Source: Bradyrhizobium quebecense (GTDB taxonomy: Bacteria; Pseudomonadota; Alphaproteobacteria; Rhizobiales; Xanthobacteraceae). Taken from it: a stretch of 64,000 nucleotides of DNA. Below the pieces are notes generated by a model. That model did not search any database. It saw only the letters and a list, made by a program, of their open reading frames with translations, and was not told where the DNA came from. A program made the position numbers and the translations under genes. Numbering within the stretch: position 1 is the first letter of the stretch; the number at the start of each line of letters is the position of its first letter. Of this stretch, positions 23,623-63,416 are shown piece by piece. The stretch covers positions 8,067,501 to 8,131,500 of the forward strand of contig NZ_CP088022.1 in assembly GCF_013373795.3 (NCBI RefSeq). The letters are read 5' to 3'.

Positions 23623-25259
<1,637 letters not shown>

Positions 25260-25263
<4 letters not shown>

Positions 25264-28049: not shown

Positions 28050-31000
28050 ATGACGCAGGCTGGCAACTTTCAATTCCTAAGGCTTCACGACGCTCGTTTG
28101 CAGGCATACGGAGCGGCCGCCGAGCGTTACCTACACGATGACCCCAACACTGCAATTTTCAAGCTTCGACAGTTCGCCGAGCTGCTTTGTAAAATCGTCG
28201 CTGCTCGTCATGCCCTATACCTCGGTGAACGAGAGACTTTTGAAGATACGCTTAGGCGGCTCAGCCTCGAACGGATAACACCCAGAGAAGTTGCCGACGT
28301 TTTCCATGCCATACGGAAGATAGGCAATCGTGCCGTTCATGAAGGCGAAGGAAGCTTCAAAGAAGCCTTGTCGGCCCTGAAGTTTGCGTGGCAGTTGGGC
28401 GTCTGGTTTCACCGGGCTTATGGGAAGCAGCCAAATTTCAAGCCATCACAGTTCGCAGAGCCGTCGAAACCCACCAAGACGGAGATTGATCAGAACGCCG
28501 CGCGACTGAGCGAGCTCGAGAAGGAGCTGGCGGCTGCTGTGCGAGCGCTTGAGACTGCCCGCGGCGAAGCGCACGAGAGCGCGCGTGCCCGCGAAGGTAT
28601 CGAAGAAAAGCTCAAACAAGTTCAAGAGGAGCGAACGCTGTGGGAGGCGCTGGCGCAAGAAGCTGAGCAAGAAAAACTTCGCAGCGTAGCACGGAGCCAA
28701 GACTTTAAGCCTCAATTCTCGGAGGACGTATCTGCAATATCGAATGCGCTTCGCATCGTGCGTGATCCGCTCGACCAGGTCCAAGAGCTTGCAAAGCAGA
28801 CTTCGCAGGTGGAGTTGTCCGAGTTGGTGGTTCGCGGCGAAGAAGCTGCCAAAAAAATCGATCTCGACGAAGCGTCTACCCGAGACCTCATCGACCAGCA
28901 GCTCCGCGACAGTGGTTGGGAAGCTGACACAAAATCCTTGCGCCATAGTGCGGATGCTCGACCTGCAAAGGGACGCAATCTTGCAATTGCCGAGTGGCCG
29001 ACCGCGAGTGGTCCGGCAGACTACGCATTGTTCGTAGGTTTAACGCTGGTCGGCGTGGTCGAGGCAAAGCGGAAACGTAAGAACGTATCGGCCGCCATCG
29101 ATCAGGCCGAGCGCTATTCGATGGGAATGAAACCCGACGCGGCGTTCTCATTTGCGGAAGGTAGGCCGTGGGGCACCCACGGTGTGCCGTTTGTTTTTGC
29201 GGCGAATGGCCGTTCCTATCTGAAGCAGATCGAAACTGAGAGTGGTATCTGGTTTCGCGATACGCGACGTTCGGCCAATCACCGCCGAGCGCTGGTGGGT
29301 TGGCCAACCCCTGAAGGCCTTCTCGGGCAGCTCGAAATCAATCCAGATGCCGCTGACACTGCTCTGAAGGACATGCCCTTCGAGTTTGGCTTTCCGCTCC
29401 GAGAATACCAACAGGGCGCGATACGGGCCGTGGAAGGAGCCTTGGGCGGTGGTCGCCGTTCGATGTTGCTCGCTATGGCGACGGGTACGGGAAAGACTAA
29501 GCTAGCGATAGCAATGCTCTACCGCCTGCTCGAAACGAAGCGGTTTCGGCGCGTCTGCTTTGTCGTTGACCGATCAGCTCTTGGTGAGCAAGCCGCTGGG
29601 GAGTTTACGACGACAAAGGTCGTATCGGGAAAGGCCTTTGCCGACATCTTCGGCCTCAAGAGGCTCTCCGACGTGACACCTGAGAGTGAAACGAAGGTCC
29701 ACATTTGCACCATACAAGGTCTCGTCAAGCGCGTATTGTATGCGGCCGACAGCTCGGAAGCGCCGCCAGTGGACCAATACGACCTCATGGTAATCGACGA
29801 GTGTCACCGCGGCTACTTGCTTGATCGGGAAATGTCCGACGCCGAGCTGAGCTTCCGGGGTCAAGAAGACTACATTTCCAAGTATCGCCGCGTACTTGAG
29901 TACTTCGACGCTGTGAAAATTGGGCTTACGGCCACACCAGCATTACACACCACTGAAATCTTTGGCGATCCGATTTTCAAATATTCATATCGGCAGGCGG
30001 TCATTGACGGCTATTTGATCGACCACGAGCCTCCTGTGCGCATCGAGACGGCATTGGCGCGTGCCGGTATCATCTTCGAGAAAAACAAGCAGTTGGACTT
30101 GTTGAATACCCGCACCGGCGAAATCAACTTAGCTCATGCACCCGATGAAATCCGGTTTGATGTCGAGCAGTTCAACAAGCAGGTCATCACTGCGGAATTC
30201 AATCGTGTGGTAGCTGAGGAGCTTGCGAGCCACATCGACCCATCGGCCCCGGGGGCTGGGAAGACATTGATCTTTGCTGCTACCGATGCCCACGCTGATA
30301 TTGTCGTGGCCGAAATAAAAAGGGCGTTCGCGAAGAAATACGGTGATATCGATGACGCGACGGTGAGGAAGATTACCGGGAGCGTAGATCGGGTGGGAAC
30401 GCTTATTCGTTCGTTCCGCAACGATGCCGATCCTAAGATTGCCGTCACTGTCGACCTGCTTACGACCGGGGTGGATGTACCATCCATCACAAATCTGGTG
30501 TTTCTGCGAAGGGTCAACAGCCGCATCCTCTATGAGCAAATGATCGGCCGAGCGACGCGGCTGTGCCCCGATATTGGCAAGGAAGTGTTCCGCATCTTCG
30601 ATGCCGTGGACCTGTATCCGCATTTGCAGGAATTGACGGACATGAAGCCGGTGGTGGTCAACCCATCAATTAGCTTCGAGCAGCTCCTCAAGGAGCTGGT
30701 GACGGCAGATAAAGACGCTCACCGGGAAACCATTCGCCAGCAGCTTGCTGTGAAGCTTCGCCGAGCCATGAAGAGGCTATCGCCCGAAGCGCGCGTCAAG
30801 TTTGAAGCCGCGGCCGGAGAAGCGCCTGAGGCGACCCTGAAGCGCATATTGGACGCAAAGCCCGCAGCGCTGTCGGAATGGTTCTCGTCTCGGTCGGCGG
30901 TTGGGCCGATCCTGGATTGGCAGGGTGACGGAGACGGGCAACCACGCTTCATGCCTATCTCGCATCACCCCGACGCGGTTATAGCAGTCACGCGCGGATA

Positions 31001-31520
31001 TGGCGCGGCGAATAAGCCGGAAGATTTTCTAGAGGGCTTTGAAGCCTACGTGCGCGACAACGTTAACACTGTAGCAGCCTTGAAACTCGTGGTTCAGCGG
31101 CCGCGCGACCTAACGCGGGCGGACTTACGAGACCTTCGCGCTGCGCTCGATTTGAAGGGGTATTCGGAGGTTAATCTCCGTCGGGCGTGGGCCGACGCCA
31201 AGAATGTGGATATCGCCGCTTCCATCATTGGCTTTGTCCGGCAGGCGGCCTTAGGTGACCCGCTGGTGCCTTATGCGGATCGGGTGAAAGCCGCGATCCA
31301 GCGGGTGTTGATCGGCAAGAATTGGAGTGATCCTCAAAAGAGGTGGCTCCGCCGCATCGCCGAGCAAGTCGAGAAGGAAGTCGTGGTTGACCGCGACGCC
31401 CTTGATCGGGAACCTTTCGCAGCTGATGGCGGATTTGCGCGCCTTAATAGGGTTTTCGATGGCGAGCTTGAGAGCTTGCTGAGTAGCATCAACGAGGAAA
31501 TGTGGAAGAAGGCGGGGTAA
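28050..31520 (+). CDS. hsdR: Type I restriction endonuclease subunit R (HsdR) with DUF4145 N-terminus
   Basis: 1156 residues. Residues 20-125 form a DUF4145-like helical domain, followed by a coiled coil at about 150-225. The PD-(D/E)xK nuclease is near 300-350 (P-A-D-Y-A-L-F ... V-V-E-A-K-R-K). The SF2 translocase has Walker A in A-T-G-T-G-K-T (about 477-484), V-I-D-E-C-H (about 580) and G-L-T-A-T-P (about 625), with helicase C motifs Q-M-I-G-R-A-T-R-L. It resembles the EcoEI-type subunit. The ATG is almost abutted by GGGGGAGGA. It cuts unmethylated DNA after translocation in complex with HsdM and HsdS, its two operon partners. Confidence 0.95.
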   Translation: MTQAGNFQFLRLHDARLQAYGAAAERYLHDDPNTAIFKLRQFAELLCKIVAARHALYLGERETFEDTLRRLSLERITPREVADVFHAIRKIGNRAVHEGEGSFKEALSALKFAWQLGVWFHRAYGKQPNFKPSQFAEPSKPTKTEIDQNAARLSELEKELAAAVRALETARGEAHESARAREGIEEKLKQVQEERTLWEALAQEAEQEKLRSVARSQDFKPQFSEDVSAISNALRIVRDPLDQVQELAKQTSQVELSELVVRGEEAAKKIDLDEASTRDLIDQQLRDSGWEADTKSLRHSADARPAKGRNLAIAEWPTASGPADYALFVGLTLVGVVEAKRKRKNVSAAIDQAERYSMGMKPDAAFSFAEGRPWGTHGVPFVFAANGRSYLKQIETESGIWFRDTRRSANHRRALVGWPTPEGLLGQLEINPDAADTALKDMPFEFGFPLREYQQGAIRAVEGALGGGRRSMLLAMATGTGKTKLAIAMLYRLLETKRFRRVCFVVDRSALGEQAAGEFTTTKVVSGKAFADIFGLKRLSDVTPESETKVHICTIQGLVKRVLYAADSSEAPPVDQYDLMVIDECHRGYLLDREMSDAELSFRGQEDYISKYRRVLEYFDAVKIGLTATPALHTTEIFGDPIFKYSYRQAVIDGYLIDHEPPVRIETALARAGIIFEKNKQLDLLNTRTGEINLAHAPDEIRFDVEQFNKQVITAEFNRVVAEELASHIDPSAPGAGKTLIFAATDAHADIVVAEIKRAFAKKYGDIDDATVRKITGSVDRVGTLIRSFRNDADPKIAVTVDLLTTGVDVPSITNLVFLRRVNSRILYEQMIGRATRLCPDIGKEVFRIFDAVDLYPHLQELTDMKPVVVNPSISFEQLLKELVTADKDAHRETIRQQLAVKLRRAMKRLSPEARVKFEAAAGEAPEATLKRILDAKPAALSEWFSSRSAVGPILDWQGDGDGQPRFMPISHHPDAVIAVTRGYGAANKPEDFLEGFEAYVRDNVNTVAALKLVVQRPRDLTRADLRDLRAALDLKGYSEVNLRRAWADAKNVDIAASIIGFVRQAALGDPLVPYADRVKAAIQRVLIGKNWSDPQKRWLRRIAEQVEKEVVVDRDALDREPFAADGGFARLNRVFDGELESLLSSINEEMWKKAG

Positions 31521-49868: not shown

Positions 49869-52049
49869 ATGAGTCAAGCTGACGATATCCGTTGGTTCGT
49901 ACGTGCAAATTTCATTGAACCGGCAAGGGCCCGTGGGGACACGTCCGTTTCTGTCAGAGCGGGTGATGTACAAAAGCAAATGGGTCTTAGTGACGCCATC
50001 CCAGCTGTGTGCAGTGCAATTGGGAGCGACAAATTTCTTGTCGACGCAAGCGTTTCGCAGATTTCGCGGGAAGGACCTCAGAACAGCTCGACGACGGTCT
50101 TTGCATTCGCGCCGAACAACAATGAGCAAATCGATACTGAGAGCGCAGAAGCCGAATTGCGTCGCCGCTATGGAACGCCTGACGTGGATACCAAATACCT
50201 GGTGTCATTCGATTTGTCGGACAAGAGGGCGATAGCGCTGCAGCGCGGCAATTCGATTGTACAGCTCTGGTTTGAAGACAGCGGAGCTAAAATCCCAGTC
50301 GTTGAACAAAGATTGTATGAGGCAAATGAGGGGCGACATTCGAACTTGCCTAATCGCCTGACTCATCAACCCGCAGTTTCTTTCAGAGAGAAGGGATTTC
50401 CCCGACCCGTGCGAAGCGTGCGGGTGACGAGCGCAGCGCAGCTAAAGTTTGCGTTGGACTGGTACGAGCGCTTTGACTTCGCAGATGAAGCGGCAAAACG
50501 TAATGCAACAGAATTGAAGGACGAGAATATCGTGGCTGGCCAAACGGCGACCAACTTGATCCTTTATGGCCCGCCAGGCACTGGGAAGACATACTCGAGT
50601 GCGCGTGAAGCCGTGTTGCTGTGTGATGGAAAGTTGCCAGATGGCGTTGGTCGCGGAGCAGTTATGGCGCGATTCAATGCGCTCAAAAGAGCTGGTCGCA
50701 TCGCTTTCGTAACGTTCCATCAGAGTTATAGCTATGAAGAATTTGTGGAGGGGCTGAGGCCTGATACGAGCCCCGACCAGGAGGCGGACAATCAGACAAG
50801 CACGGGTTTCAGATTGAAGCCGACAGATGGCGTCTTTAAGCGTGTGGCGTCAGTGGCTAAACAGGCCGGTCATGCGGCTTCAACGGACATTGATCTAAGC
50901 AAACGTGACTTCTTCAAGATGTCGTTGGGCGCGGCGGACGGCGATGAGGAAATTTATCGGGCGGCTATAGAGGGAAGCTACATCGCCCTAGGATGGGGTA
51001 CGGGATTCGATTGGAGTAACTCCGCTTATGAGCAATTTGATGCGATCTTGAATGAGTGGCGAACCAAAGACCCGGACGTCAACAGCCAGAGTTCTCGGGT
51101 CCGTCAGTCTCACTACATGCGTGCGGTAATGAAGGAAGGAGACATTGTCATTATCGCGTATGGGAATACGGAATTTCGAGCGGTGGGCGAAGTTATCGGG
51201 CCGTATGAGTACCATGGTAATGCGCCCCAATTTCGTCATCGACGAAAAGTTCGCTGGCTACGCGTGTTTGAGCGGGCTCTCCCCGTCGAGACGATCTTAC
51301 AGGGGAAGTTTACGCAGGCCGCGCTCTACAAGCTGGATACGGCAAAGCTCAATCGCTCCGCGCTTGCAACGCTTATTGGCGAGACTGAAAATGAGGGTCG
51401 ACCTGGAGGCGCGCCACTTCCCTACGTTCTGATTATCGACGAAATCAATCGAGCAAATGTTTCGAAGGTCTTCGGCGAGCTTATAACGCTTCTAGAGCCG
51501 GATAAGCGCCTCGGCCGCATCAACGCGTTGACCGTCACCCTGCCCTATTCCGGAGAAGATTTTGGAGTGCCTCCGAACCTGCACATCATTGGCACGATGA
51601 ATACAGCGGATCGTTCTATTGCGCTGCTAGATACAGCCCTGCGCCGAAGATTTCAATTCAAAGAGCTAATGCCCGACGCAATTCTTCTTAGCAGAGATGT
51701 AGAGGGAGTTGACCTGTCGTCTGTTTTGCTTCGCCTGAACGAGCGTATCGAGTATTTATTCGATCGAGAGCACCAGATAGGACATGCTTACTTCATGGAG
51801 TGCGATACGCGGGAGAAGTTGGATGACGTGATGCGAAAGAAGGTCATCCCGCTACTGGCCGAGTATTTCTATGACGATTGGGAAAAGGTGCGAATAGTAC
51901 TTGGGGAGACAAGCGATGAGGGGCGTTTTATCAATCGCATCAGACTGCCCGCGCCATCGATGCTTCCGGAAGCCGATATAACCGAGCGATTTCGGTATGC
52001 AATCCGTTCGAAGTTTGAGGATGGAGCCTTCGAAGGCCTGATGCAATGA
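49869..52049 (+). CDS. mcrB: McrB-type AAA+ GTPase with EVE-like domain inserted in the motor
   Basis: 726 residues. An N-terminal winged-helix-like domain (about 1-85, R-G-D-T-S-V-S-V-R-A-G-D-V) precedes the McrB motor: Walker A L-Y-G-P-P-G-T-G-K-T (about 233-242), Walker B V-L-I-I-D-E-I-N-R-A-N (about 518-528), and the McrB signature M-N-T-A-D-R-S (about 577-583). Between them, about 348-478 resembles an EVE/PUA-like modified-base reader (F-F-K-M-S-L-G ... Y-I-A-L-G-W-G ... M-K-E-G-D-I-V-I-I-A-Y-G). It would form GTP-driven rings that recognise modified DNA and activate the adjacent McrC nuclease. Confidence 0.9.
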   Translation: MSQADDIRWFVRANFIEPARARGDTSVSVRAGDVQKQMGLSDAIPAVCSAIGSDKFLVDASVSQISREGPQNSSTTVFAFAPNNNEQIDTESAEAELRRRYGTPDVDTKYLVSFDLSDKRAIALQRGNSIVQLWFEDSGAKIPVVEQRLYEANEGRHSNLPNRLTHQPAVSFREKGFPRPVRSVRVTSAAQLKFALDWYERFDFADEAAKRNATELKDENIVAGQTATNLILYGPPGTGKTYSSAREAVLLCDGKLPDGVGRGAVMARFNALKRAGRIAFVTFHQSYSYEEFVEGLRPDTSPDQEADNQTSTGFRLKPTDGVFKRVASVAKQAGHAASTDIDLSKRDFFKMSLGAADGDEEIYRAAIEGSYIALGWGTGFDWSNSAYEQFDAILNEWRTKDPDVNSQSSRVRQSHYMRAVMKEGDIVIIAYGNTEFRAVGEVIGPYEYHGNAPQFRHRRKVRWLRVFERALPVETILQGKFTQAALYKLDTAKLNRSALATLIGETENEGRPGGAPLPYVLIIDEINRANVSKVFGELITLLEPDKRLGRINALTVTLPYSGEDFGVPPNLHIIGTMNTADRSIALLDTALRRRFQFKELMPDAILLSRDVEGVDLSSVLLRLNERIEYLFDREHQIGHAYFMECDTREKLDDVMRKKVIPLLAEYFYDDWEKVRIVLGETSDEGRFINRIRLPAPSMLPEADITERFRYAIRSKFEDGAFEGLMQ

Positions 52050-53383
52050 TCCGTCGGACAGTAAGGGAGTGGACGGGGTTACCAATTGAGGCGCCGTCGA
52101 GTGGGGCGGGTGCTTTTACCCGGCCTCTCGCTGAAAACTTGCTGCGAGTCGCTCGGCGGACAAAGCTAGGAGGTGATGGCGGAGCGAGGATCTTAGTGGA
52201 TAGATCCTCAAGCCTTTTGGCGCAACAGGTTGTTGGAGTTCTCGTTGCGAATGGAGTGACCCTGGAGATTTTGCCAAAGATCGAGGGCGCAAGTGACGAT
52301 CAGGCAGTTCGCCGAAGCTTAGTACATATGCTGGCGAAGGTTCTCGATCTTGATATCGCCACAGGTCCGGTCACAGCGCTTGGTTGGCAGAGTGACAATA
52401 TGCTCGAGATCATCATTCGCATGTTTTGCGGAAAGCTGTTTGCCGCGCTCCGCCAGGGAATTCCGCGGCAGTACACGGAATTGGAGGAAGACGTTACAGC
52501 GCTGCGTGGGACCCTCGATGTAGTTCGACAGTTTACGATCATGGTGTCGACGCCACAAAAGCTGGCGTGTCGATTTGATGAATTGAACCAGAACGTCCCT
52601 CTAAATCAGATCATGAAGGCGGCGATATCGCGTCTTCGTGCAATCTCCTCGAATATTGAGAATCAACGAAGATTAGCCGAGCTCATGTTTGCTTATGATA
52701 GTGTGGCGACTGTCCCGATTGGCTCGCTGCGCTGGGATCGGGTTCTCATCGATCGAACCAATGCGGCTTGGGCAGAACTGCTCCGATTTGCGAAGCTGTT
52801 TCTCCAACATCAGTTCCAATCGACAACGTCGGGCTCGGTTGAAGGGTTTTCGCTACTCTTTGAAATGAACACGCTTTTTGAAGAGTTTGTCGGGCGGATC
52901 CTGCGGAGCGCTTTACGAGGGACAGACCTTGCGGTGCAGTTGCAAGGACCTAGGAAACACGCGCTCATAGATCTGCATACGGGGGCGGCGCGCTTTGCGA
53001 CGCGACCTGACATCGTTGTGAGTCGAAATGGCAAGCCCCTGTTAGTGATCGATACAAAATGGAAACGGCTCAAGGGAGCAATCGACGATGCAAAGCGAGG
53101 AGTAGGTCAGGCCGATGTCTACCAAATGATGGCCTACTCCCATGTTTACGAGTGCGATCGCCTGATGCTGCTTTATCCTCACCATCACGAGCTAGCGGAA
53201 CACGAGGGCCTGATCTCGCTTCATCAGATTACCAATAAAGCGGACAACTTGATCGGAATTGTGACTGTAGGGCTGGTGGACCCCCAAAAGGTGGGAGTGG
53301 TTCTTAAGGGATTACTACTCGGTGAGAATGGCGCATTTGATTTGAGGTCGGGCCGGTCGGCGCTGACATCGAGCCGTCACTGA
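52046..53383 (+). CDS. mcrC: McrC-type restriction endonuclease subunit
   Basis: 445 residues; the ATG overlaps the mcrB stop (ATGA at 52046-52049). The N-terminal McrC domain stimulates the McrB GTPase. The C-terminal PD-(D/E)xK nuclease shows R-P-D-I-V-V (about 320) and V-I-D-T-K-W-K (about 335-341), with the usual D...D-x-K spacing. Cleaves DNA when loaded by McrB. All catalytic residues are present. Confidence 0.93.
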   Translation: MIRRTVREWTGLPIEAPSSGAGAFTRPLAENLLRVARRTKLGGDGGARILVDRSSSLLAQQVVGVLVANGVTLEILPKIEGASDDQAVRRSLVHMLAKVLDLDIATGPVTALGWQSDNMLEIIIRMFCGKLFAALRQGIPRQYTELEEDVTALRGTLDVVRQFTIMVSTPQKLACRFDELNQNVPLNQIMKAAISRLRAISSNIENQRRLAELMFAYDSVATVPIGSLRWDRVLIDRTNAAWAELLRFAKLFLQHQFQSTTSGSVEGFSLLFEMNTLFEEFVGRILRSALRGTDLAVQLQGPRKHALIDLHTGAARFATRPDIVVSRNGKPLLVIDTKWKRLKGAIDDAKRGVGQADVYQMMAYSHVYECDRLMLLYPHHHELAEHEGLISLHQITNKADNLIGIVTVGLVDPQKVGVVLKGLLLGENGAFDLRSGRSALTSSRH

Positions 53384-54199: not shown

Positions 54200-55828
54200 T
54201 CAAGCGGCGAGCTTTGGCTCCGAACCATCGCGCTCGGCTTTCCAATTCCACGGCAGCAGCGTGTTCAGCTGATTGATCTTGGTACGTCCGGAGACGATGC
54301 GCTCGAGAACATCAGTAAGATAGTGCCGTGGGTCGATGTCGTGAAGCTTTGCGGAGTTGATGAGTGATGCGAGAGTGGCCCAGGTTTCGGCGCCGCCCTC
54401 ACTGCCTGCGAACAGATAGTTTTTCTTTCCCAGCCCGATCGGCTTGATGCTGCGTTCGACCGTATTGCTGTCGATCTCGATGCGCCCATCATCGATGAAT
54501 CGCGTCAGGCCATCCCAATGGTTGAGGGTGTAGCGGATCGCCTTGCCAAGGCCGGATTTCTTCGAGACTTCCAGCAGTCGCGCCTCGAGCCAGGGCTTGA
54601 AGTCCTCGATCAGCGGTCTGGTGTCGGATTGTCGCACCGCAGCTCGCTGCGTCGCCGGCAAACCGCGAATGCGATCCTCAATGGCGTAGAACATCGCGAT
54701 CCGCTGCAGCGCTTCCGCGGCAATCGGCGATTTCGTCGCGATGTGGACGTCCCAGAACTTCCGCCGCGCATGCGCGAAGCAGAACGCCAGTTGTACCAGA
54801 CGGCCGCCGTTTTTAATCAGCCCCTTGTACCCGGCGTAGCCGTCGACCTGCAGGATGCCGTCGTAGTCTCCAAACAGCTGCCTGGCGCGGATTGCCTTGC
54901 GATCCTCGGCGAACACGTAGACTACTGCCGGCGGCGCCGGGCCGCCCCACGGGCGGTCGTCGGTGGCGATCGCCCAGAACTGGCAGACTTTGGTTCTGCC
55001 ACGGCCGGGATCGAGAACTGGCAGCGGCGTCTCGTCGGCAAACAGCCGCGGGTAGGACATCACTGCGCGGCGCAACAGCGCGTGAAGCGGCTTCAGCCAC
55101 CAGGCGACGCGGCCCATCCACGAGGCCAGCGTTTGCCGGTCGAGCGTGATGCCTTGGGCGGCAAACATCTGTTCCTGGCGATACAGCGGCAGCTGGTAGC
55201 CGTATTTCATCACCGCGACGTGGGCCAGCAAGGCTTCCGTCACCATTCCACCGTCGATCGCCTGGGCCGGCGCGGGTGCCTGCAGAACACCCTGGCGGCA
55301 TCCCCGGCAGCCGTACCGTGGACGCATGATGCGCTTGACCCGGTACTGCATCGGAATGACGTCGAAGGCTTCCTTGACGGTCTCCCCGATCTTGTGCAGC
55401 TGCTCGCCGCAGCAAGGGCAGATGTGGCTCTCGATATCGATCACGACATCGATGCGCGGCAAATGCTCCGGAAGCTTCCCCCGGTTGCGTCGCGCCGGTC
55501 GCTTTCCACGGCCCTCCGCTCCGTCAGGCAGCCTGCCTCCGGTCACGTCGTCGTTGGCGGCGGCACGAACCGCCTGTGCCCTGATGGTGAAGAGAGACAG
55601 CTGTCCGATATCCAGTGTCTCGGAGCGCGGACCGAAGATCGTGCGCTTGTACTGGGACAGGATTATCAGGAGCTTGTCGTTCTCCTGGATCGCAGCGTCG
55701 CGTTGGGCGATCGCTGCATCACGCTCGGTCGCCAGCGTGCTGCATTCCTCCGACAACGCCGCAAGCCGTGACGATAGCGTCATCACGGCTTGTCGGAGCA
55801 ATGCTGGATCGGAAGGCAAATCACTCAT
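54200..55828 (-). CDS. tnpC: IS66 transposase TnpC
   Basis: 542 residues. Coiled-coil N-terminus (about 20-60), zinc-finger C-P-C-C-G-E-Q-L with downstream C-R-G-C, then the catalytic domain with A-D-E-T-P-L-P-V-L-D-P, V-D-G-Y-A-G-Y-K-G-L and S-N-T-V-E-R-S-I-K-P-I-G-L-G-K-K-N-Y (DDE residues), and the C-terminal L-L-P-W-N-W tail. Complete, so the IS66 is probably functional. Confidence 0.94.
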   Translation of the reverse strand: MSDLPSDPALLRQAVMTLSSRLAALSEECSTLATERDAAIAQRDAAIQENDKLLIILSQYKRTIFGPRSETLDIGQLSLFTIRAQAVRAAANDDVTGGRLPDGAEGRGKRPARRNRGKLPEHLPRIDVVIDIESHICPCCGEQLHKIGETVKEAFDVIPMQYRVKRIMRPRYGCRGCRQGVLQAPAPAQAIDGGMVTEALLAHVAVMKYGYQLPLYRQEQMFAAQGITLDRQTLASWMGRVAWWLKPLHALLRRAVMSYPRLFADETPLPVLDPGRGRTKVCQFWAIATDDRPWGGPAPPAVVYVFAEDRKAIRARQLFGDYDGILQVDGYAGYKGLIKNGGRLVQLAFCFAHARRKFWDVHIATKSPIAAEALQRIAMFYAIEDRIRGLPATQRAAVRQSDTRPLIEDFKPWLEARLLEVSKKSGLGKAIRYTLNHWDGLTRFIDDGRIEIDSNTVERSIKPIGLGKKNYLFAGSEGGAETWATLASLINSAKLHDIDPRHYLTDVLERIVSGRTKINQLNTLLPWNWKAERDGSEPKLAA

Positions 55829-55882
55829 GCAGAGCGATTCTACAACAACTCCGCATGAGTGACGAACGACTCTTGATAATGA

Positions 55883-56233
55883 TCAACCAGCTCGCATCGG
55901 CTGATCCACAACTCGCATCGGCACACGCTTCCAGTCCGAGCCATCGAGCAGCACCGAGAGCTGAGCATGAGATAGCGACATGACGCCTTCCTTGATCGGC
56001 GGCCAGGTGAACTGCCCCTCGATTCTTTTGTAGTAAAGGACAAGGCCGCTTCCATCCCAAGTCAGGATCTTCACGCGATCTCGGCGCTTGGAGCGGAAGA
56101 CATAAAGTCCGCCGTCGAACGGATCGGCTCCAAAGGCCTCGCTCACCAGCATCGCCAGCGAGTCCATGCCGCGGCGGAAATCGACCGGCTGCGTCGCAAT
56201 CCAGATCGACAACCCAGCTCGAAGCCCGATCAT
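55883..56233 (-). CDS. tnpB: IS66 Orf2 / TnpB
   Basis: 116 residues from ATG 56233, overlapping the tnpA stop in ATGA. The hallmark Q-P-V-D-F-R-R-G-M-D-S-L-A is present, followed by L-Y-V-F-R-S-K-R-R-D-R-V-K-I-L. An accessory protein needed for efficient transposition in this family, mechanism unclear. Confidence 0.93.
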   Translation of the reverse strand: MIGLRAGLSIWIATQPVDFRRGMDSLAMLVSEAFGADPFDGGLYVFRSKRRDRVKILTWDGSGLVLYYKRIEGQFTWPPIKEGVMSLSHAQLSVLLDGSDWKRVPMRVVDQPMRAG

Positions 56234-56673
56234 CGACCAACCGTCCCGACCGCCGCCAGCACCTCGCACAGTGCCTCCCGGTCCACTGTCCCCCTGACAC
56301 GGATGCGAATCGCGCCGACCTCGATCTCGATCGCCGCCTGCTCCTCACTCGGGCGCCCACAGCCGGTGATCGCGACCGGCACAAAGCCAGGTGGCATGCC
56401 TCTGTCCCCGCGCTCCGCGACCTGCGCCCGCGTAGCCTGGCGACGCCAGAGAAACAACAGGCTTGGACTGATGTCGTGTCGCCGCGCCACTGCGGACACG
56501 CTTGCGCCCGGCGCAAAACTCTCCGCAACAATCGCCGCCTTCGCATCGGTCGACCAGCGCCGACGTCGGCCCGTCCCGGTGATGATCTCGACACGCTGCA
56601 GCGTGTCGGCGCCGTGTTCGAGGATAGGCATATGCCTATCCTTATCGCTATCCTTACGACTATCCTTTGACAT
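56230..56673 (-). CDS. tnpA: IS66 Orf1 / TnpA
   Basis: 147 residues from ATG 56673; an internal ATG (M-P-I-L-E-H-G) is an alternative. The helix-turn-helix is R-R-R-W-S-T-D-A-K-A-A-I-V-A-E-S and V-S-A-V-A-R-R-H-D-I. The first codons derive from short tandem AAGGATAG units (K-D-S-R-K-D-S-D-K-D). Unrelated in sequence to TnpA of other IS families. Confidence 0.9.
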   Translation of the reverse strand: MSKDSRKDSDKDRHMPILEHGADTLQRVEIITGTGRRRRWSTDAKAAIVAESFAPGASVSAVARRHDISPSLLFLWRRQATRAQVAERGDRGMPPGFVPVAITGCGRPSEEQAAIEIEVGAIRIRVRGTVDREALCEVLAAVGTVGR

Positions 56674-56757
56674 TGTGACCTCGCGACAAACCATTCCGCG
56701 AGATCTTCCTAGCCGACCAGATCAACCCTCAGCGCGTGGTCTCCGCATGACGCTCAC

Positions 56758-57571
56758 GGTTGTTGAACCAGTCCACCCATTCCAGAGTCGCGAACTCGAC
56801 GGCCTCGAAGTGTCGCCATGGTCCGCGCCGATGGATCACCTCGGCCTTGTAGAGGCCGTTGATCGTTTCGGCGAGAGCATTGTCATAGGAATCTCCGACG
56901 CGGCCGACAGAAGGCTCCACGCCTGCTTCAGCCAGGCGCTCGGTGTACTTGATGGAGACGTATTGGCTGCCTCTGTCGCTGTGGTGCACGAGCCCGCCAC
57001 GATGGAGCGGTCGTCGATCATGCAGCGCCTGCTCCAGTGCATCGAGCACGAAGCCGGCATGCGCCGTGCGCGAGGCCCGCCAACCCACGATCCGGCGGGC
57101 ATAGGCGTCGATGACGAAAGCGACGTAGACGAAGCCGCTCCAGGTCGCGACATAGGTGAAGTCGGAGAGCCACAGGACATTCGGCCTTGGCGCCTTGAAC
57201 TGGCGGTTGACGTGATCCAGCGGGCATGGCGCGGCCTTGTTACTGATCGTGGTTTTGACGGTTTTGCCGCGGATTACCCCTTGTAAAGCCATGTCCCGCA
57301 TCAGTCGCGACACTGTGCAACGGGCAACATCAAAGCCTTCGCGCTTGAGCTGCCGCCAGACCTTGCGCGCGCCGTAGACGGAGAAGTTCTCCTCGAACAC
57401 GCGCCGGACCTCGATCTTCAGCCTGGCATCCTGCCTGGCGCGGGCCGACAACTTGGCCGGATCGCGCCGCTTGGCGACATGAGCGTGGTAGGTCGAGGGG
57501 GCGATCGGCAACACCTTGCAGATCGGCTCGACCCCATGCGCCCCACGATGATCGTCGATGAAGGCGATCAT
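56758..57571 (-). pseudogene. IS3 transposase orfB, 5' part, interrupted by IS66
   Basis: Integrase-type DDE transposase: W-L-S-D-F-T-Y, H-H-S-D-R-G-S-Q-Y, and D-N-A-L-A-E-T-I-N-G-L-Y-K-A-E (D-D-E). The sequence runs to W-V-D-W-F-N-N-R and then enters IS66 DNA, stopping at 56729 after E-R-H-A-E-T-T-R. The missing 30-residue tail is at 53525-53624. The catalytic residues remain, but the C-terminal end is replaced. Confidence 0.9.
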
Positions 57572-57897
57572 GGCTTGGACCGGCGGTCGAGCTCCGCCAT
57601 CGCAAAATAAGCGCTTGCCTTACGCAGGATCTCGTTGGCTTGCCGAAGCTCGCGGTTCTCCCGCTCAAGGGCCTTCAGCTTGTCGGCCATGTCGGTCGGA
57701 ACGCCGGCCCGCTGCCCGCTGTCGACCTCGGCCTTCTTGACCCAGTCATGCAGCGTCTGCGGCGTGCAGCCAATCTTCGCCGCAATCGATGTCACGGCCG
57801 CCCAGCGCGAGGGGTGATCGCTTGCGTGATCCAGAACCATCCGAACCGCACGGGCCCGAACCTCGGGTGAAAACTTGTTCGTCGTCTTGCTCGTCAT
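57568..57897 (-). CDS. IS3 transposase OrfA
   Basis: 109 residues. Helix-turn-helix ([16 protein letters not shown]) followed by a leucine-zipper helix ([22 protein letters not shown]). The orfB start overlaps its end by four bases. Intact, but the element lacks a complete orfB. Confidence 0.92.
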
Positions 57898-57947
57898 GGC
57901 TCCACCTTCTCAAGAGTTGGAGCCTCCGGCAATCCCGGGGCGGTTCA

Positions 57948-58790
57948 AAGCGCTTTGTCGTCGCAGCGGCTGGTAATGAAGGCGGTAGTGGATGTTCGGC
58001 GAAACGTATTCTGCTTGCCAATGAGCCCGAATTCCTCGTCCTGCAGACTGGGCAGAACTGCAAGGAGGTTCTGATTGAATTTTGGTGGGATGACTCGTTT
58101 GCAAAGGGAGTTTCGATCGAGGCGGAGATCAATGAGGTTCTTGCAAATGGCAAGCTAGCCAAGCATGGCACGCTTGTAATCGACCCGGCCAATGCGGGAG
58201 CCACGCTAGCAACCAATTCCATCGGCCTTCCCTCCAACATAGTCACGCACTCACTCTTCGGGGCCCCATGCCAAGATGGTTTCAGGTGCATCGCCTTTGG
58301 ACTGAGTTCATCTCCTTTGAGCTCCCGTTTGCCTCCGCTTCGTGTAAGGTTCAAATTGAATGCGACTACTGATGTCGCGATCAACAGCTGGATTGTGGTA
58401 GCCGAAGAACCTCGCCTGACAGCATTCGTGGAGGGCGGCCCCGAAGGAAGCATCGCGGTGCCGGCTAGCGATGAAAAAGTACTCAGCGTTGCTGGACTTG
58501 GGCACTTGGGAAAAATTTGGGAAGGGTCATCCCGTGGTCCAGCAGCCGAATACGACACGACGAGAGCTCCATCAGGAAGCCCGTACATGGCCCATCTAGC
58601 CAACCTGAGTGGAACTCTGGGTACTAGTTTCGCAAGTCCGCGAGCTTGCGGGGACGTAGTTGAGGCGCTCGCAAATCCAGCCAAGCTAAAGAACTGCGCA
58701 GATGTCAAATCTCTGTTGGCCGAAACGTATGGCCTGAAAGCTCTGCGCAAATGGAATCCTCGGATCGGCTATCACAAACAAACCAAGTAA
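57948..58790 (+). pseudogene. Subtilisin-like serine protease (S8), 5' end missing
   Basis: Begins at the IS3 edge with [12 protein letters not shown], the oxyanion-hole region of subtilases, and contains the nucleophile block [11 protein letters not shown] at about 225 codons in. The Asp and His catalytic blocks, normally in the preceding 150 or more residues, are absent, and no matching DNA remains on the left of the IS3. About 280 codons of the C-terminal part persist. Cause: IS3 insertion with deletion of the 5' part. Confidence 0.82.
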
Positions 58791-58856: not shown

Positions 58857-61800
58857 CTATGGAACGTCCTTAGCTCCGGAGCAATCACTAGTCGCCAAGT
58901 GAGATGTCGCATTCGGTTGGTTCAAATCGGCCAGAAACATCAAAGCCGACCGGCTGGGCAGGAAAAAATAACCCCCACCGCGCGCCGTGACAAAGTTGCT
59001 ACTTCCGGCCAGCGACAGCGATCCGGCCGATGTTGGGATCGTGAAGCGCGTCGAACGATCTTCAGACTTCACCGACGCGATCGGATCGGGCTCATTAGTG
59101 AGGCCTGCAAAGCCGGGAGCATTCAGCCAGGATTGTTGTATGAACTCAAATTGGCGCTCGAGATCGGCGCATATACCTACAAACAGAAGCCCCTGCTCGT
59201 TCTCTTGCTCGTAAGGCCTGCCGCGTCGCAGAAGCCGATGGCGATTGGTGATTTCCAGTTGGGAACTGTCGTCGGGAGCAAGACTGCCGCGCGGGTTTGC
59301 TCGTCGAATATGGGCGCCAAACGGGCAATAATAGCCCTGAGGATCGTCAACGCCGAAATCCAAATCGGTATCGGAGCGCAACCGGCGCTCGTTGCGATGT
59401 ATGTGATGGCCCGATCGATCCTCGCGAGCCTCTGCCTCGTCGTGGTGCTCGCCCGCAGGGGGCTCGGATGTATCGTGTTTCTTTGATGGCGCGATGGGAC
59501 GGTCGATTAGCGGCACGCCATCATGCCAACGGCCCATCATCTTTGCTTCGACCCACTCCCGTGTGACCGGTCCTCCCAGTTGATCCGCAAGGCGCGGCGT
59601 CTCGCGCAGCTTTTCGGCGCGTTCCTCAGCGAAATCATGAAAGTCTTTGACGCGCTGCCGAAGTTGGCGGATCGCAAGAAAGCTTCCATTCCGCCCAAAG
59701 TCACGAACTTGGGGCCGTGGGTCCTGGAATGCCGAGAAGCGAGTGTCGGCGGAGATCGGAACGGAGCCCAGCCTGTTTCTGATATCTTTCTCGCGCGCGA
59801 TGACGGGGGTCGGCGGATAATATCCCTGATTGTTCTTGTAACCGAGCAAGAACTCGCCCGGCTCCATGATGTCGCGGGGTTGCACGCCTCGGACAAATCG
59901 CTGCGTCCCGCGGATGACGGGCTGGGAGATGCCGTCGCGAAAACCGAAAGGCTCGTAGCCGAACCCCTTCTTGGTCGGCTGGGTATCAAGCTGGTACAAG
60001 ATGCGGGCGCCGCTTGGCAGATTGTCCTGATGGCGGCGAAAAAGAGCATCGACCTCTTCCTTGGACCTCCCATATAACAGGAGGATGGCGTGTGCCCCGT
60101 TTTCGGTGCTGGCATCCGACCATCTCCATGATGCATCGGTGTCCTCAGGTTTGATGTCCTCGGGATCTGGATCCCCCAAAATGCGATGTCGTGAGGCCAT
60201 CCCCATATTGAAGACGGCAGGAAACGTCGCGACCGCAGAGGAATTCTTCGGGCCAGGTAAGCCGAGATTGGACAGGCCCGACGCGGTGAACGCGACAAAG
60301 GTCGCTGTGTTCTCGCCATCGCCCATCGAGGGACGGTCGCCGAACGTTATCTCGAAAGGGCCATGCGCAAATGTGAGGTTGGCACCTGTATGCGTGTCCA
60401 AACTCGGTACGAGAGTCCTCAACCATTCGGCGCACGCTGTGCGCTCGGGAAGGCGGATCTCTACAAATTTCATGTGCTCAAGATGTCTGAAGCCGCGGAA
60501 GATGATCGACTGCACCTCCTGCGTCTCGAGCTCCGCATCGGTCTTCGGCATTGAGCCGAAATAGCTGAGCCATGCGCGAGCCTGCGTGTCGGTGGAGGCG
60601 CGCGCCAACTCCCAGCAGATGACGGCATGGTTGCGGATCTGATCGGCTGTAAGGTCCGGAAATCGGTTGAACCAGAACTGCGTTGGCTCCTGCTGACGGC
60701 GGACCCATCGCTTGAAGCGGTCCCCGTCCTCAGCTCCGCCACCAACGAGAAATTGCGTCCGTGGGAAGCCGACCGCGTTGCTCCACGCCGCACTTTGTCC
60801 GGCATGAGCTTTGGTGATGAAGTCCTCCAGATAGCTTTCCCAGCTGCCGTCGTAATTGGAGAGGAAAACGAGGTGCTCCGACCGGGGCGGACGGAACCAG
60901 CGCGCGAAATGGATGGTCCCCATGTTGAAAATGAACCCGGGGCGGAACGCACGCGCAACGACTAGCTCGATGCCCCAGAGAGCAATCCCCAGGGTCAGCT
61001 TCCGGAAAACACCTGGCTTGAGCGGGGACACGGACAGAAAGTGGTTTTGTACAAAGCCTGGAACGCTCTCGTGTTTGGCGATCTCGCGAAGCTTGGCAAG
61101 ATCCGGTTCGAAGTCCTGCGGCTTGTCGTGGATGTCGGCGTAATGGAGCCTCAACAAGAACGCGGTGACCACGATGCCAACCAGCGTGACGGTGCCGAAA
61201 CATCCCGCCACCAGCGCGATCGCGCATTGCCCAAGAGTCATCGGCAGGTCGTCTACGGCAAAGGAAAAGCCGAGCCATTCGAAGCAGGCGACGCTGATGA
61301 GGATCGCAGCGAGGCTCAGCCATCCATAGACCGGAAACAGCGTCGGCGAACCGAGGATCGCCAACGTGCGGCTTGGCGGTGCTTGCCAGGCCAAGGTTTG
61401 TGGCTGCTGGCGGCTCGGGATCATGAGATAACGTCTGAATTCGCCGCCCTCGGACAGGAATTTCCTGATGTCCGGGTCAGTATTATTCCGCCATCTCGGA
61501 TCGCCCTGAATGAGACCCCGAACAAATTTCAGGATGTCCACGGCATGACTGCCGAATCCAGCATGAAGCGAGACGAAGTAATCGACAGTGCTGCGGCAGT
61601 ACCGCGCCAAAAGCTTCTGCCGCTCGATGTCATCGATGGATTGCCCCGGTATGCCATAGAAGCACAGCCCGGTCGTCCCCCATGGCCGCGCATGAAGGTC
61701 GAGCATGTGAGCCTTCAGCATGGTGACGAGCGATCGTTTGCTGCTTGTCTCGCGCGGTGCGATGTTCCCATCGGCTGCGGATTCGAACAACGGTTGCAGC

Positions 61801-63416
61801 CATTTGCTTGCGTGCTGGCCAACCGCGTCGATCAGGGAATCTGCGTCGCCGTCGCCGTTGAGTTCCAACAGGAGATGGGGGGCAGGTACTTGTGATTCTC
61901 CAAGGTCAATCAGGTTTAGCGAGGCAAAGTGGACGACGCCCGTTGCTCGAAAGGCCTCTGCAATGTCTGGGTTGGCCGGATTGCCGAAACTACAAATTCT
62001 GTCTCGCCAGGCCTTTTGGTCGGCGTTCTGCGCCAATGGCGCAAGGATTGTGACCATGCTATGGCTTCGCGAGCAGCCTTCAGGCGCAAATTCCATGTCG
62101 AGCCGGCGTGGAAAGGGCCCGACGCGATAAATACGTCCCCATCGGTCATTGCTTGCAGTTAGCTTCTCCTGCTGCAGCAGCACTGCGAGCACCTCGGTGA
62201 CTTGCGCCATCGCCAGCGCCTTTCCGAGGCACGCATGGACCCCCGATCCGAAAACCAATTCATACCCCTTGTCGGGTCTGTCGCGCATCGCCGAAGCCGT
62301 TGCGACAAGCAGCACGGAATTCTTGCGAATCGACCGCTCGCTCAAGCCATGACCGATCGTTCCACCGTCCTTGGCATAGCGCCACTGCCCCGGATTCAAA
62401 GCCGGATTGAGCTGCGCCGCCGCGAAGAGAACGGAAGTCAGCTTCTCGCGTGCTCCGCCGGCGTCTTGCTCTACGGCATGGCCCATGCTTTTTGCGGCAG
62501 CCTTGGCGGCCCGCATTTTGGCAGGGTGCGTCAACAATTCCTCGACGATGTTGCCAGCGGCCAGAGTGGTCGTTGGAATAAATCCGGTGATCATACCGAC
62601 CATGATGGCGCGAACTGCGTCGTCAGAGATGCCCGCCGCGACGAGTCTTTGGAGAATTGTACTGTCAAGACCGCTGGGGGGTGGTTGGCTCGGAGCAGCC
62701 GAGAGGCGCGCCACAGAGTCGTCGATGACCGATCGGACGCGCGCAGCTCCCGCAAGTGCCAGCTTTCGGATGGCAGGTTTGCCAAACGGATCGGCGAAGA
62801 GCAGCGCGGAAATGGACATCGCCCACTCGGCGAAAGCGTCGGTGTCGTCGATCCACAGCCCGAAAAACTCGGCGCATGTTTCCGCCGCGACCCGGGTGAT
62901 GAGATCTTTCATCACGTCGATGCGGCCACCGGACGCGTGTATCAGCGTGGTCGCGATTTCCCCCGATCGGCGAATGAGCCATTCGGTATCCCCGTCGTGT
63001 GAGAGGTCAGCAATTAGCTTGTGTTGGCAGCGCTGCTGATCGCCGTTGAGACCGAGCACAAAGGTTACCGTGCCACCTCCCAGCTCCTCCATCTCAGGGC
63101 CATAGGGCACCGTGAAGGTGGCCGGATTCGAAAGCACCTCGCGGACGTCGGCGTCGCGCGTGACGATGACGAGGCGGCCGAACCTTGGGATGGGCCAGAA
63201 TATCCGGAAAAATGCCAAGATGGCCCGCAGGGCCCACAGCCAAATGCGCCTTGTGATTGGCGACAAAAGCCCGTCGGGTCCCAGATCATCAAAATCAAAG
63301 CTGCCGGCAGGCGTGGTGTCTTCGTCCCTGGGCTTCTGTTCGGCCGCCGTGATCTTGTCGAAATATTTTAATGTCCACGCCTGCTGAATATCCCCAAACG
63401 CTCTTACGGGCCCCAT
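58857..63416 (-). CDS. Cytochrome P450-like / membrane / DyP-type peroxidase fusion protein
   Basis: 1519 residues. A P450-like domain (about 80-445) has the heme loop F-G-S-G-V-H-A-C-L-G with Cys396; I see no clear Glu-x-x-Arg in the K-helix position. A central region contains V-V-H-F-A-S-L ... L-L-E-L-N-G-D-G (about 494-523), two membrane segments (about 696-718 and 727-756) and a related block T-I-H-F-A-R-W ... L-S-N-Y-D-G-S (about 834-858). A DyP-type peroxidase (about 960-1500) shows F-R-D-G-I-S-Q-P (Asp1161) and the proximal His1369 in G-A-H-I-R-R-A-N-P-R. Two heme sites in one membrane protein suggest coupled peroxide-dependent oxidation, possibly of lipids; the substrate is unknown. 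Confidence 0.85.
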   Translation of the reverse strand: MGPVRAFGDIQQAWTLKYFDKITAAEQKPRDEDTTPAGSFDFDDLGPDGLLSPITRRIWLWALRAILAFFRIFWPIPRFGRLVIVTRDADVREVLSNPATFTVPYGPEMEELGGGTVTFVLGLNGDQQRCQHKLIADLSHDGDTEWLIRRSGEIATTLIHASGGRIDVMKDLITRVAAETCAEFFGLWIDDTDAFAEWAMSISALLFADPFGKPAIRKLALAGAARVRSVIDDSVARLSAAPSQPPPSGLDSTILQRLVAAGISDDAVRAIMVGMITGFIPTTTLAAGNIVEELLTHPAKMRAAKAAAKSMGHAVEQDAGGAREKLTSVLFAAAQLNPALNPGQWRYAKDGGTIGHGLSERSIRKNSVLLVATASAMRDRPDKGYELVFGSGVHACLGKALAMAQVTEVLAVLLQQEKLTASNDRWGRIYRVGPFPRRLDMEFAPEGCSRSHSMVTILAPLAQNADQKAWRDRICSFGNPANPDIAEAFRATGVVHFASLNLIDLGESQVPAPHLLLELNGDGDADSLIDAVGQHASKWLQPLFESAADGNIAPRETSSKRSLVTMLKAHMLDLHARPWGTTGLCFYGIPGQSIDDIERQKLLARYCRSTVDYFVSLHAGFGSHAVDILKFVRGLIQGDPRWRNNTDPDIRKFLSEGGEFRRYLMIPSRQQPQTLAWQAPPSRTLAILGSPTLFPVYGWLSLAAILISVACFEWLGFSFAVDDLPMTLGQCAIALVAGCFGTVTLVGIVVTAFLLRLHYADIHDKPQDFEPDLAKLREIAKHESVPGFVQNHFLSVSPLKPGVFRKLTLGIALWGIELVVARAFRPGFIFNMGTIHFARWFRPPRSEHLVFLSNYDGSWESYLEDFITKAHAGQSAAWSNAVGFPRTQFLVGGGAEDGDRFKRWVRRQQEPTQFWFNRFPDLTADQIRNHAVICWELARASTDTQARAWLSYFGSMPKTDAELETQEVQSIIFRGFRHLEHMKFVEIRLPERTACAEWLRTLVPSLDTHTGANLTFAHGPFEITFGDRPSMGDGENTATFVAFTASGLSNLGLPGPKNSSAVATFPAVFNMGMASRHRILGDPDPEDIKPEDTDASWRWSDASTENGAHAILLLYGRSKEEVDALFRRHQDNLPSGARILYQLDTQPTKKGFGYEPFGFRDGISQPVIRGTQRFVRGVQPRDIMEPGEFLLGYKNNQGYYPPTPVIAREKDIRNRLGSVPISADTRFSAFQDPRPQVRDFGRNGSFLAIRQLRQRVKDFHDFAEERAEKLRETPRLADQLGGPVTREWVEAKMMGRWHDGVPLIDRPIAPSKKHDTSEPPAGEHHDEAEAREDRSGHHIHRNERRLRSDTDLDFGVDDPQGYYCPFGAHIRRANPRGSLAPDDSSQLEITNRHRLLRRGRPYEQENEQGLLFVGICADLERQFEFIQQSWLNAPGFAGLTNEPDPIASVKSEDRSTRFTIPTSAGSLSLAGSSNFVTARGGGYFFLPSRSALMFLADLNQPNATSHLATSDCSGAKDVP

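Follow-up and report, generated by a model that had tools for sequence, protein, structure and literature searches.

A P450-like domain and a DyP-type peroxidase joined in one bacterial polypeptide by a membrane module of unnamed domains

In the window, the 64,000-nucleotide stretch of Bradyrhizobium quebecense DNA analysed here, one frame of 1519 aa encodes, in this order, a P450-like domain, a domain termed here X, a membrane hairpin, a second domain termed M, and a DyP-type peroxidase (Table 1). An earlier note, made from the letters alone, had read a single polypeptide with a P450-like part, a membrane module and a DyP-type peroxidase; Pfam, PDB sequence and fold searches bear this out, and both the P450 fold and the DyP fold are recovered. 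Such fusion genes already stand in public records as "cytochrome P450" or "Dyp-type peroxidase domain-containing protein". Two heme enzymes in one gene, coupled repeatedly and in both orders among relatives, point to an uncharacterised oxidising machine, probably run by peroxide.

Table 1. Features of the fusion gene and its upstream neighbour (positions in the window)
Feature	Position	Strand	Remark
Whole fusion gene, 1519 aa	58857..63416	-	
P450 fold, residues 49-447	62076..63272	-	AF2 model and structure-alignment ranges
I-helix region, residues 270-290 (GFIPT)	62547..62609	-	Pro281 at the usual acid position, Thr282 kept
K-helix residues 332-335 (A-A-A-Q)	62412..62423	-	E-x-x-R in 43/49 relatives' rows
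Heme-ligand Cys396	62229..62231	-	Cys in 49/49 P450 parts
Domain X, residues 449-647, unnamed	61476..62072	-	Predicted beta-alpha-beta-beta-alpha-beta
Two hydrophobic spans, residues 693-711 and 732-750	61167..61340	-	Hydropathy
Domain M, residues 774-958, unnamed	60543..61097	-	Homolog of X; most conserved segment
D-type DyP peroxidase, about residues 963-1504	58905..60530	-	
DyP distal Asp1161	59934..59936	-	Asp in 71/72 rows, one gap (truncated row)
DyP proximal His1369	59310..59312	-	72/72 rows
DyP distal Arg1397	59226..59228	-	72/72 rows
C2, co-directional upstream gene, 583 aa	63469..64000	-	Runs off the window; whole in L026 8970-10721

The same P450-X-M-DyP architecture was found in one frame at 16 of 62 loci, the window included (L002-L005, L026, which is the window, L027, L046-L048, L100, L102, L104, L106, L108, L109 and L116). 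Profile searches with the X-M module gave matches in 25 of 397 order-level and 25 of 398 phylum-level genomes, 40 different genomes in total, and we examined 41 X/M loci, at least one from each genome. DyP is adjacent (gap of at most 1.2 kb) in 40 of them; the only locus without it, L172, is cut by a contig end. A P450 lies within about 2.1 kb of DyP in 25 of the 41, and the stretch fetched holds no P450 in 16, which indicates that the DyP-M pair can do without it. No M, X or P450 was detected at 30 control loci (best canonical matches of a DyP scan of 200 genomes, with flanks of about 1.5 kb), which are mostly of other DyP types and have short flanks.

Analysis of the remaining layouts reveals several arrangements of the same parts: three separate genes (L030, L033), a P450 gene plus an X-M-DyP gene (L028, L029, L101, L105), DyP-first fusions of the form DyP-P450 (L128, L168), and DyP-first proteins with an M-like N-terminus followed by DyP and a P450-like part (L165-L167, L169, L170). 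In the last group the only matches to the M profile (about 7e-5) were L166 and L170, the only two likewise for the P450 profile, and the other members were assigned by alignment and eye. At the C-terminus a GDSL-type hydrolase follows in L166 (5e-8, above the cut-off) and L165 (7.4e-6, below the cut-off). Together with L170, where the hydrolase was recognized by eye, these are giant M-like/DyP/P450-like proteins of one genus with a C-terminal GDSL/SGNH-type hydrolase. M-DyP pairs also have a recurrent neighbour (L044, L045, L035), whose L044 copy (L044:6040-7536, minus strand) has both a DUF4331 and a polyketide-cyclase/lipid-transport domain.

To place the fusions, we calculated a quick tree of 71 DyP domains, from which the truncated row L051 was excluded. 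Each DyP-first group forms one starred branch, the 16 P450-first rows fall within a starred set of 23 alongside seven X-M-DyP rows, and the label fused or not fused requires at least four changes on this tree. The AU test rejects one clade of all fused rows (p-AU 8.5e-8), from which we infer a minimum of two origins of the P450-DyP fusion, with the enzymes in opposite orders. A single clade made up of the 16 P450-first rows is rejected as well (p 0.0198), so later splitting or a further fusion is likely. The recurrence of the fusion in both orders provides strong natural evidence for one chemistry shared by a P450-type enzyme and DyP, a link that is not stated in the open-licence PMC matches listed. 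Three independent fusions were also considered and are not upheld, since a single origin of both DyP-first groups is compatible with the AU test (p 0.346).

The C-terminal enzyme has the fold of the D-type (V-class) DyPs, as found in the fold search of the AF2 model. Its two signatures, F-R-D-G-I-S-Q-P and G-A-H-I-R-R-A-N-P-R, had been picked out in the earlier note, and D1161 (distal, in the GxxDG motif) and H1369 prove conserved, as does the distal R1397, in a 72-row alignment that excludes DyP segments of 250 aa or less. Judged by these residues, the domain appears catalytically intact. The source genome has a second, canonical DyP (L137, G000:C1:5171260-5171751, in a 386-aa frame), with no M or P450 within about 1.5 kb. 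Elsewhere, a 900-aa ORF (L118:8688-11390, plus strand) comprises DyP followed by about 400 residues, and a Pfam search of the full ORF at 0.001 lists no family.

X, the two hydrophobic spans and M sit between the two enzymes. The spans were seen in the earlier note and are present; the segment, a membrane module in that note, does more than anchor the protein, with two homologous domains flanking the spans. The M domain of the window matches the X domain of L030 (6.5e-4), and a comparison of X and M profiles with 16 rows each gave 91.5% (E 8.5e-7); an earlier comparison gave 98.9%, with an X set that may include single-domain M rows. In the AF2 model both domains show the ferredoxin-like order of strands and helices (see Table 1 for X). 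No other part of the protein is as conserved as M, which is under strong constraint: its identity to L027 and L100 is 80-82%, versus 65-67% for the P450 part, 65-69% for DyP and 52-54% for X. Pfam has no family for either domain in the fusion protein, nor in five stand-alone X-M proteins except for two sub-threshold matches in one of them. A PDB sequence search with the X-M profile reached E 0.076 at best; in the fold search of a joint X/M-DyP model DyP filled the match list, and X/M may have a known fold. PADLOC gave no match for the fusion protein, C2 or three X/M proteins, and PHROGs none for four X/M proteins. We also considered X or M as degenerate halves of DyP and rejected this by sequence (hhalign probability 0.1-0.2%), the likeness being confined to a similar order of strands and helices.

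The loop between the spans is acidic (no K/R, three D/E), which together with the two spans suggests that both enzymes face the cytoplasm. Hydropathy places hydrophobic spans between X and M in both fused and split proteins; at the threshold used some show one span (e.g. L029, L101, L116) and others up to six or seven. The one-span proteins are at odds with a hairpin that keeps both enzymes on one side, except if a further span escaped detection.

The P450 fold of the N-terminal part is found in the AF2 model and in the fold search, and the heme-Cys loop FxxGxxxCxG, read earlier near residue 390, is present as FGSGVHACLG, with Cys396 as the ligand. We compared 49 P450 rows, of which 40 are every ORF of the 62 loci that the P450 profile matched and nine come from later loci. 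The residue before the I-helix Thr, usually an acid, is Pro in 43 rows, Ala in four, Met in one and Asp in one (L103); the acid is thus absent in 48 of 49, and the Thr is retained in 37. The trait of having no I-helix acid-alcohol pair, which characterizes CYP152, is therefore seen in the window copy. In CYP152 a conserved I-helix Arg sits beside Pro; such an Arg is absent at columns 277-284 from all 49 rows. The protein L103:4828-6789 (plus strand) is the sole P450 partner with an apparent acid-alcohol pair, and its P450 has perhaps been replaced.

The reading that we favour, with slightly less than even confidence, is a two-heme membrane-bound oxidase, in which a peroxide-using P450-like domain and an intact DyP are held at the membrane, need no reductase and are regulated by C2; the "peroxide-linked membrane oxidase" of the earlier note thus stands as a working hypothesis. 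The X/hairpin/M module would hold the acid-less P450-like domain and DyP on the same, cytoplasmic, membrane face. DyP would activate a peroxide, either H2O2 or an organic hydroperoxide; the P450 domain would act on a hydrophobic (hydro)peroxide, probably of lipid origin, and oxidise or rearrange it with no reductase involved, much like dioxygenase-P450 fusions. The upstream TolB-TPR regulator would set the expression or activity of the fusion protein, seemingly through a head that binds DNA in this copy and is a class III cyclase in some relatives. The observations behind this model are the two folds, the conserved DyP residues and heme Cys, the recurrent coupling, the hydrophobic spans and the constraint on M. 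Peroxide-driven P450 chemistry is suggested by the I-helix lacking the acid as in CYP152, though without its Arg, and a lipophilic substrate by the membrane module and the GDSL fusion, which sits in another clade. Against the oxidase model stand the missing Arg, the pair in L103, the P450-free loci, the one-span proteins and, as described below, the losses in the window P450 and the reductase-type genes. A wider version, which we consider doubtful, would have a membrane-bound, peroxide-run lipid-oxidation enzyme (DyP, acid-less P450 and duplicated X/M) originate at least twice, as a counterpart of the phospholipase/cyclooxygenase/P450 cascade, with a GDSL hydrolase in one clade and products that act as signals.

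The absence of the K-helix Glu-x-x-Arg pair from the window copy, suspected in the earlier note, is confirmed by the alignment, and we therefore call this part P450-like, a P450 fold. Its proposed bearing on peroxide-shunt chemistry fails, as ExxR is retained in most P450 parts (Table 1), including the nearest same-genus orthologues L027 and L100, which rules out its loss as the key to the mechanism; the missing I-helix acid is the better sequence hint. The six parts without ExxR are those of the window and of L165, L166, L167, L169 and L170, five DyP-first fusions of another clade. A meander segment is missing in the window, L027 and L100, and the window P450, devoid of both ExxR and meander, may not hold heme normally; the P450 of this particular copy may be impaired. 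These losses, together with a weak match to TIGR04515 (36.6 versus a cut-off of 343 bits), are what one rival builds on, namely that DyP is the sole catalyst and the P450-like domain a scaffold, decayed or put to new use, for substrate binding or regulation, like the P450-derived glycosyltransferase activators. A parallel is offered by an Aspergillus dioxygenase fused to a partner without the heme-thiolate ligand, as described in the available part of PMC13049297. However, the ligand Cys is invariant and ExxR prevalent in the P450 parts, the window P450 is about as conserved as DyP, and CYP157, which lacks ExxR, is still counted as a P450 (PMC3599690, in the part available). We regard this rival as unlikely, and as the most serious of those considered.

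According to a second rival, the P450 part is an ordinary reductase-driven monooxygenase, and the fused DyP clears the peroxide of uncoupling or further oxidises the P450 product. The pair in L103 agrees with this, as does a gene of Fer2/FAD/NAD reductase type, which in L100, the nearest DyP relative, lies about 0.5 kb upstream of C2. Three of 88 pooled neighbour proteins matched Pyr_redox_2, a family in which P450 redox partners are found. The general lack of the I-helix acid argues against it, and Fer2 and FNR-type families are absent among the 25 most frequent of 74 Pfam families in 71 pooled neighbour proteins and among the 25 most frequent of 117 in the 88. We therefore find a reductase-driven enzyme improbable.

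C2 is separated from the fusion gene by 52 nt and consists of a winged-helix-like N-terminus and a TolB-like middle, both recognized by eye, and a TPR region. It lies directly upstream, on the same strand, in all 16 full P450-X-M-DyP fusions. The window protein and that of Pararhizobium share 30% identity over the C-terminal two thirds. For the N-terminus, matches to class III cyclases were obtained in L047 and L102 but not in the window C2, and the Novosphingobium homologue is annotated as SARP. We observe that the C2 genes have homologous TPR bodies with an exchanged head, a class III cyclase in some and a SARP-like DNA-binding domain in others. In PADLOC the L028 cyclase gene is hit by models of Pycsar cyclases (9.6e-15), as may happen with a class III cyclase. 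The constancy of C2, the presence of a cyclase-AAA-TPR or C2 gene in 16 of the 41 X/M loci, and cNMP_binding domains in five of the 88 and two of the 71 pooled neighbours speak for a third rival, in which the protein senses peroxide or lipid peroxide and its heme chemistry signals to the TolB-TPR partner, leading to cyclic nucleotide or transcription control. Neither a cyclase nor C2 occurs in the stretch fetched at 25 of the 41 loci and DyP keeps its catalytic residues, which leaves a sensor about as improbable as a reductase-driven enzyme.

The weakest rival, a chimera of two genes through assembly or frameshift, or a stop between the domains, which the earlier note had raised against itself, can be dismissed almost with certainty: nothing was found in its favour, the gene is a stop-free single copy in the source genome, full-length homologues occur in separate records (at 62-63% identity in the same-genus genome L027, at 46-48% on four Rhodopseudomonas contigs, and on plasmids of Novosphingobium, Pararhizobium and Sulfitobacter, plus others), and dN is below dS against L027/L100 for both the P450 segment (dN 0.29/0.26, dS 1.35/1.11) and the DyP segment (dN 0.26/0.24, dS 2.0/2.4), where dS is near saturation and the ratios are rough.

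A tRNA-Met (23623-23699), a serine-recombinase-like ORF (23656-25263, minus strand) and a fall in GC from about 65% to 53-60% probably mark where a genomic island begins. Besides the fusion gene, the part of it in the window (23623-64000) includes HsdR-like (28050-31520) and McrBC-like (49869-53383) ORFs. IS66-like and IS3-like transposase ORFs (54200-57897) adjoin the fusion gene, and an ORF with a GTSFASP subtilase-like motif (57789-58790, plus strand) is convergent with it; all these ORFs were assigned by eye. The Rhizobium plasmid L051 likewise has an annotated S8 peptidase close to its X-M-DyP genes.

A characterised family with this architecture was not found among the open-licence PMC matches listed, and a DyP-P450 fusion is not named in their titles or abstract openings (subscription journals and preprints are outside this scope). 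What is new is a fusion of heme-thiolate enzyme and peroxidase with this P450/DyP pair and an unnamed partner domain. To our knowledge, the natural substrates of DyPs are mostly unsettled; the fusion offers a lead to a physiological role for these enzymes, a candidate reductase-free P450, and an undescribed X/M family, named by no Pfam family, that accompanies D-type DyPs.

Solved D-type/V-class DyP chains (D. radiodurans DyP, Bjerkandera DyP, DyP2) share the fold and the catalytic Asp/His/Arg with the domain described here but are free-standing, without P450 or membrane module. The CYP152 peroxygenases (OleT, P450 BS-beta) likewise lack the acid-alcohol pair (PMC10988616, in the part available), but they are stand-alone, and their conserved Arg, which helps to activate H2O2 according to the accessible text of PMC13394420, has no counterpart beside Pro281. 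The oomycete CYP5619 shares the order, a P450 followed by a C-terminal heme peroxidase/dioxygenase (PMC5919972, accessible text), and differs in peroxidase family, in organism and in having no X/M module.

The overall layout is most similar in the DOX-CYP fusions of fungi (linoleate diol, allene oxide and epoxy alcohol synthases; CYP6001-6005) and in the BUPO-CCP proteins. The former are two-heme polypeptides in which a peroxidase-type domain is paired with a P450 that works without a reductase (PMC13049297, in the part available); their dioxygenase belongs to the peroxidase-cyclooxygenase superfamily and is N-terminal in CYP6001-6005 (PMC5919972, likewise), whereas the peroxidase here is a C-terminal DyP in a bacterial protein with an X/M membrane module. 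A 2026 report (PMC13394420) describes, in its accessible text, many proteins of Bradyrhizobium in which a heme-thiolate peroxygenase (BUPO) and a peroxidase are combined with a transmembrane helix. Those of BUPO clade VI with a diheme cytochrome c peroxidase likewise have the heme-thiolate enzyme first, a membrane span and the heme peroxidase last in one polypeptide, and nearly all come from Bradyrhizobium, a close relative of Rhodopseudomonas, which holds the nearest named homologues here. This precedent makes the plan of the fusion less surprising. The enzymes are not the same: BUPO-CCP proteins have a UPO-like domain and CCP, the fusion a P450 fold and DyP by Pfam, PDB sequence and fold searches, and the same text neither describes X/M nor names a DyP-P450 fusion. 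Neither family thus shares both enzymes with the fusion reported here, and together with the BUPO-CCP report our findings suggest a recurring design in bacteria, in which a heme-thiolate enzyme is paired with a peroxidase and both are tethered to the membrane.
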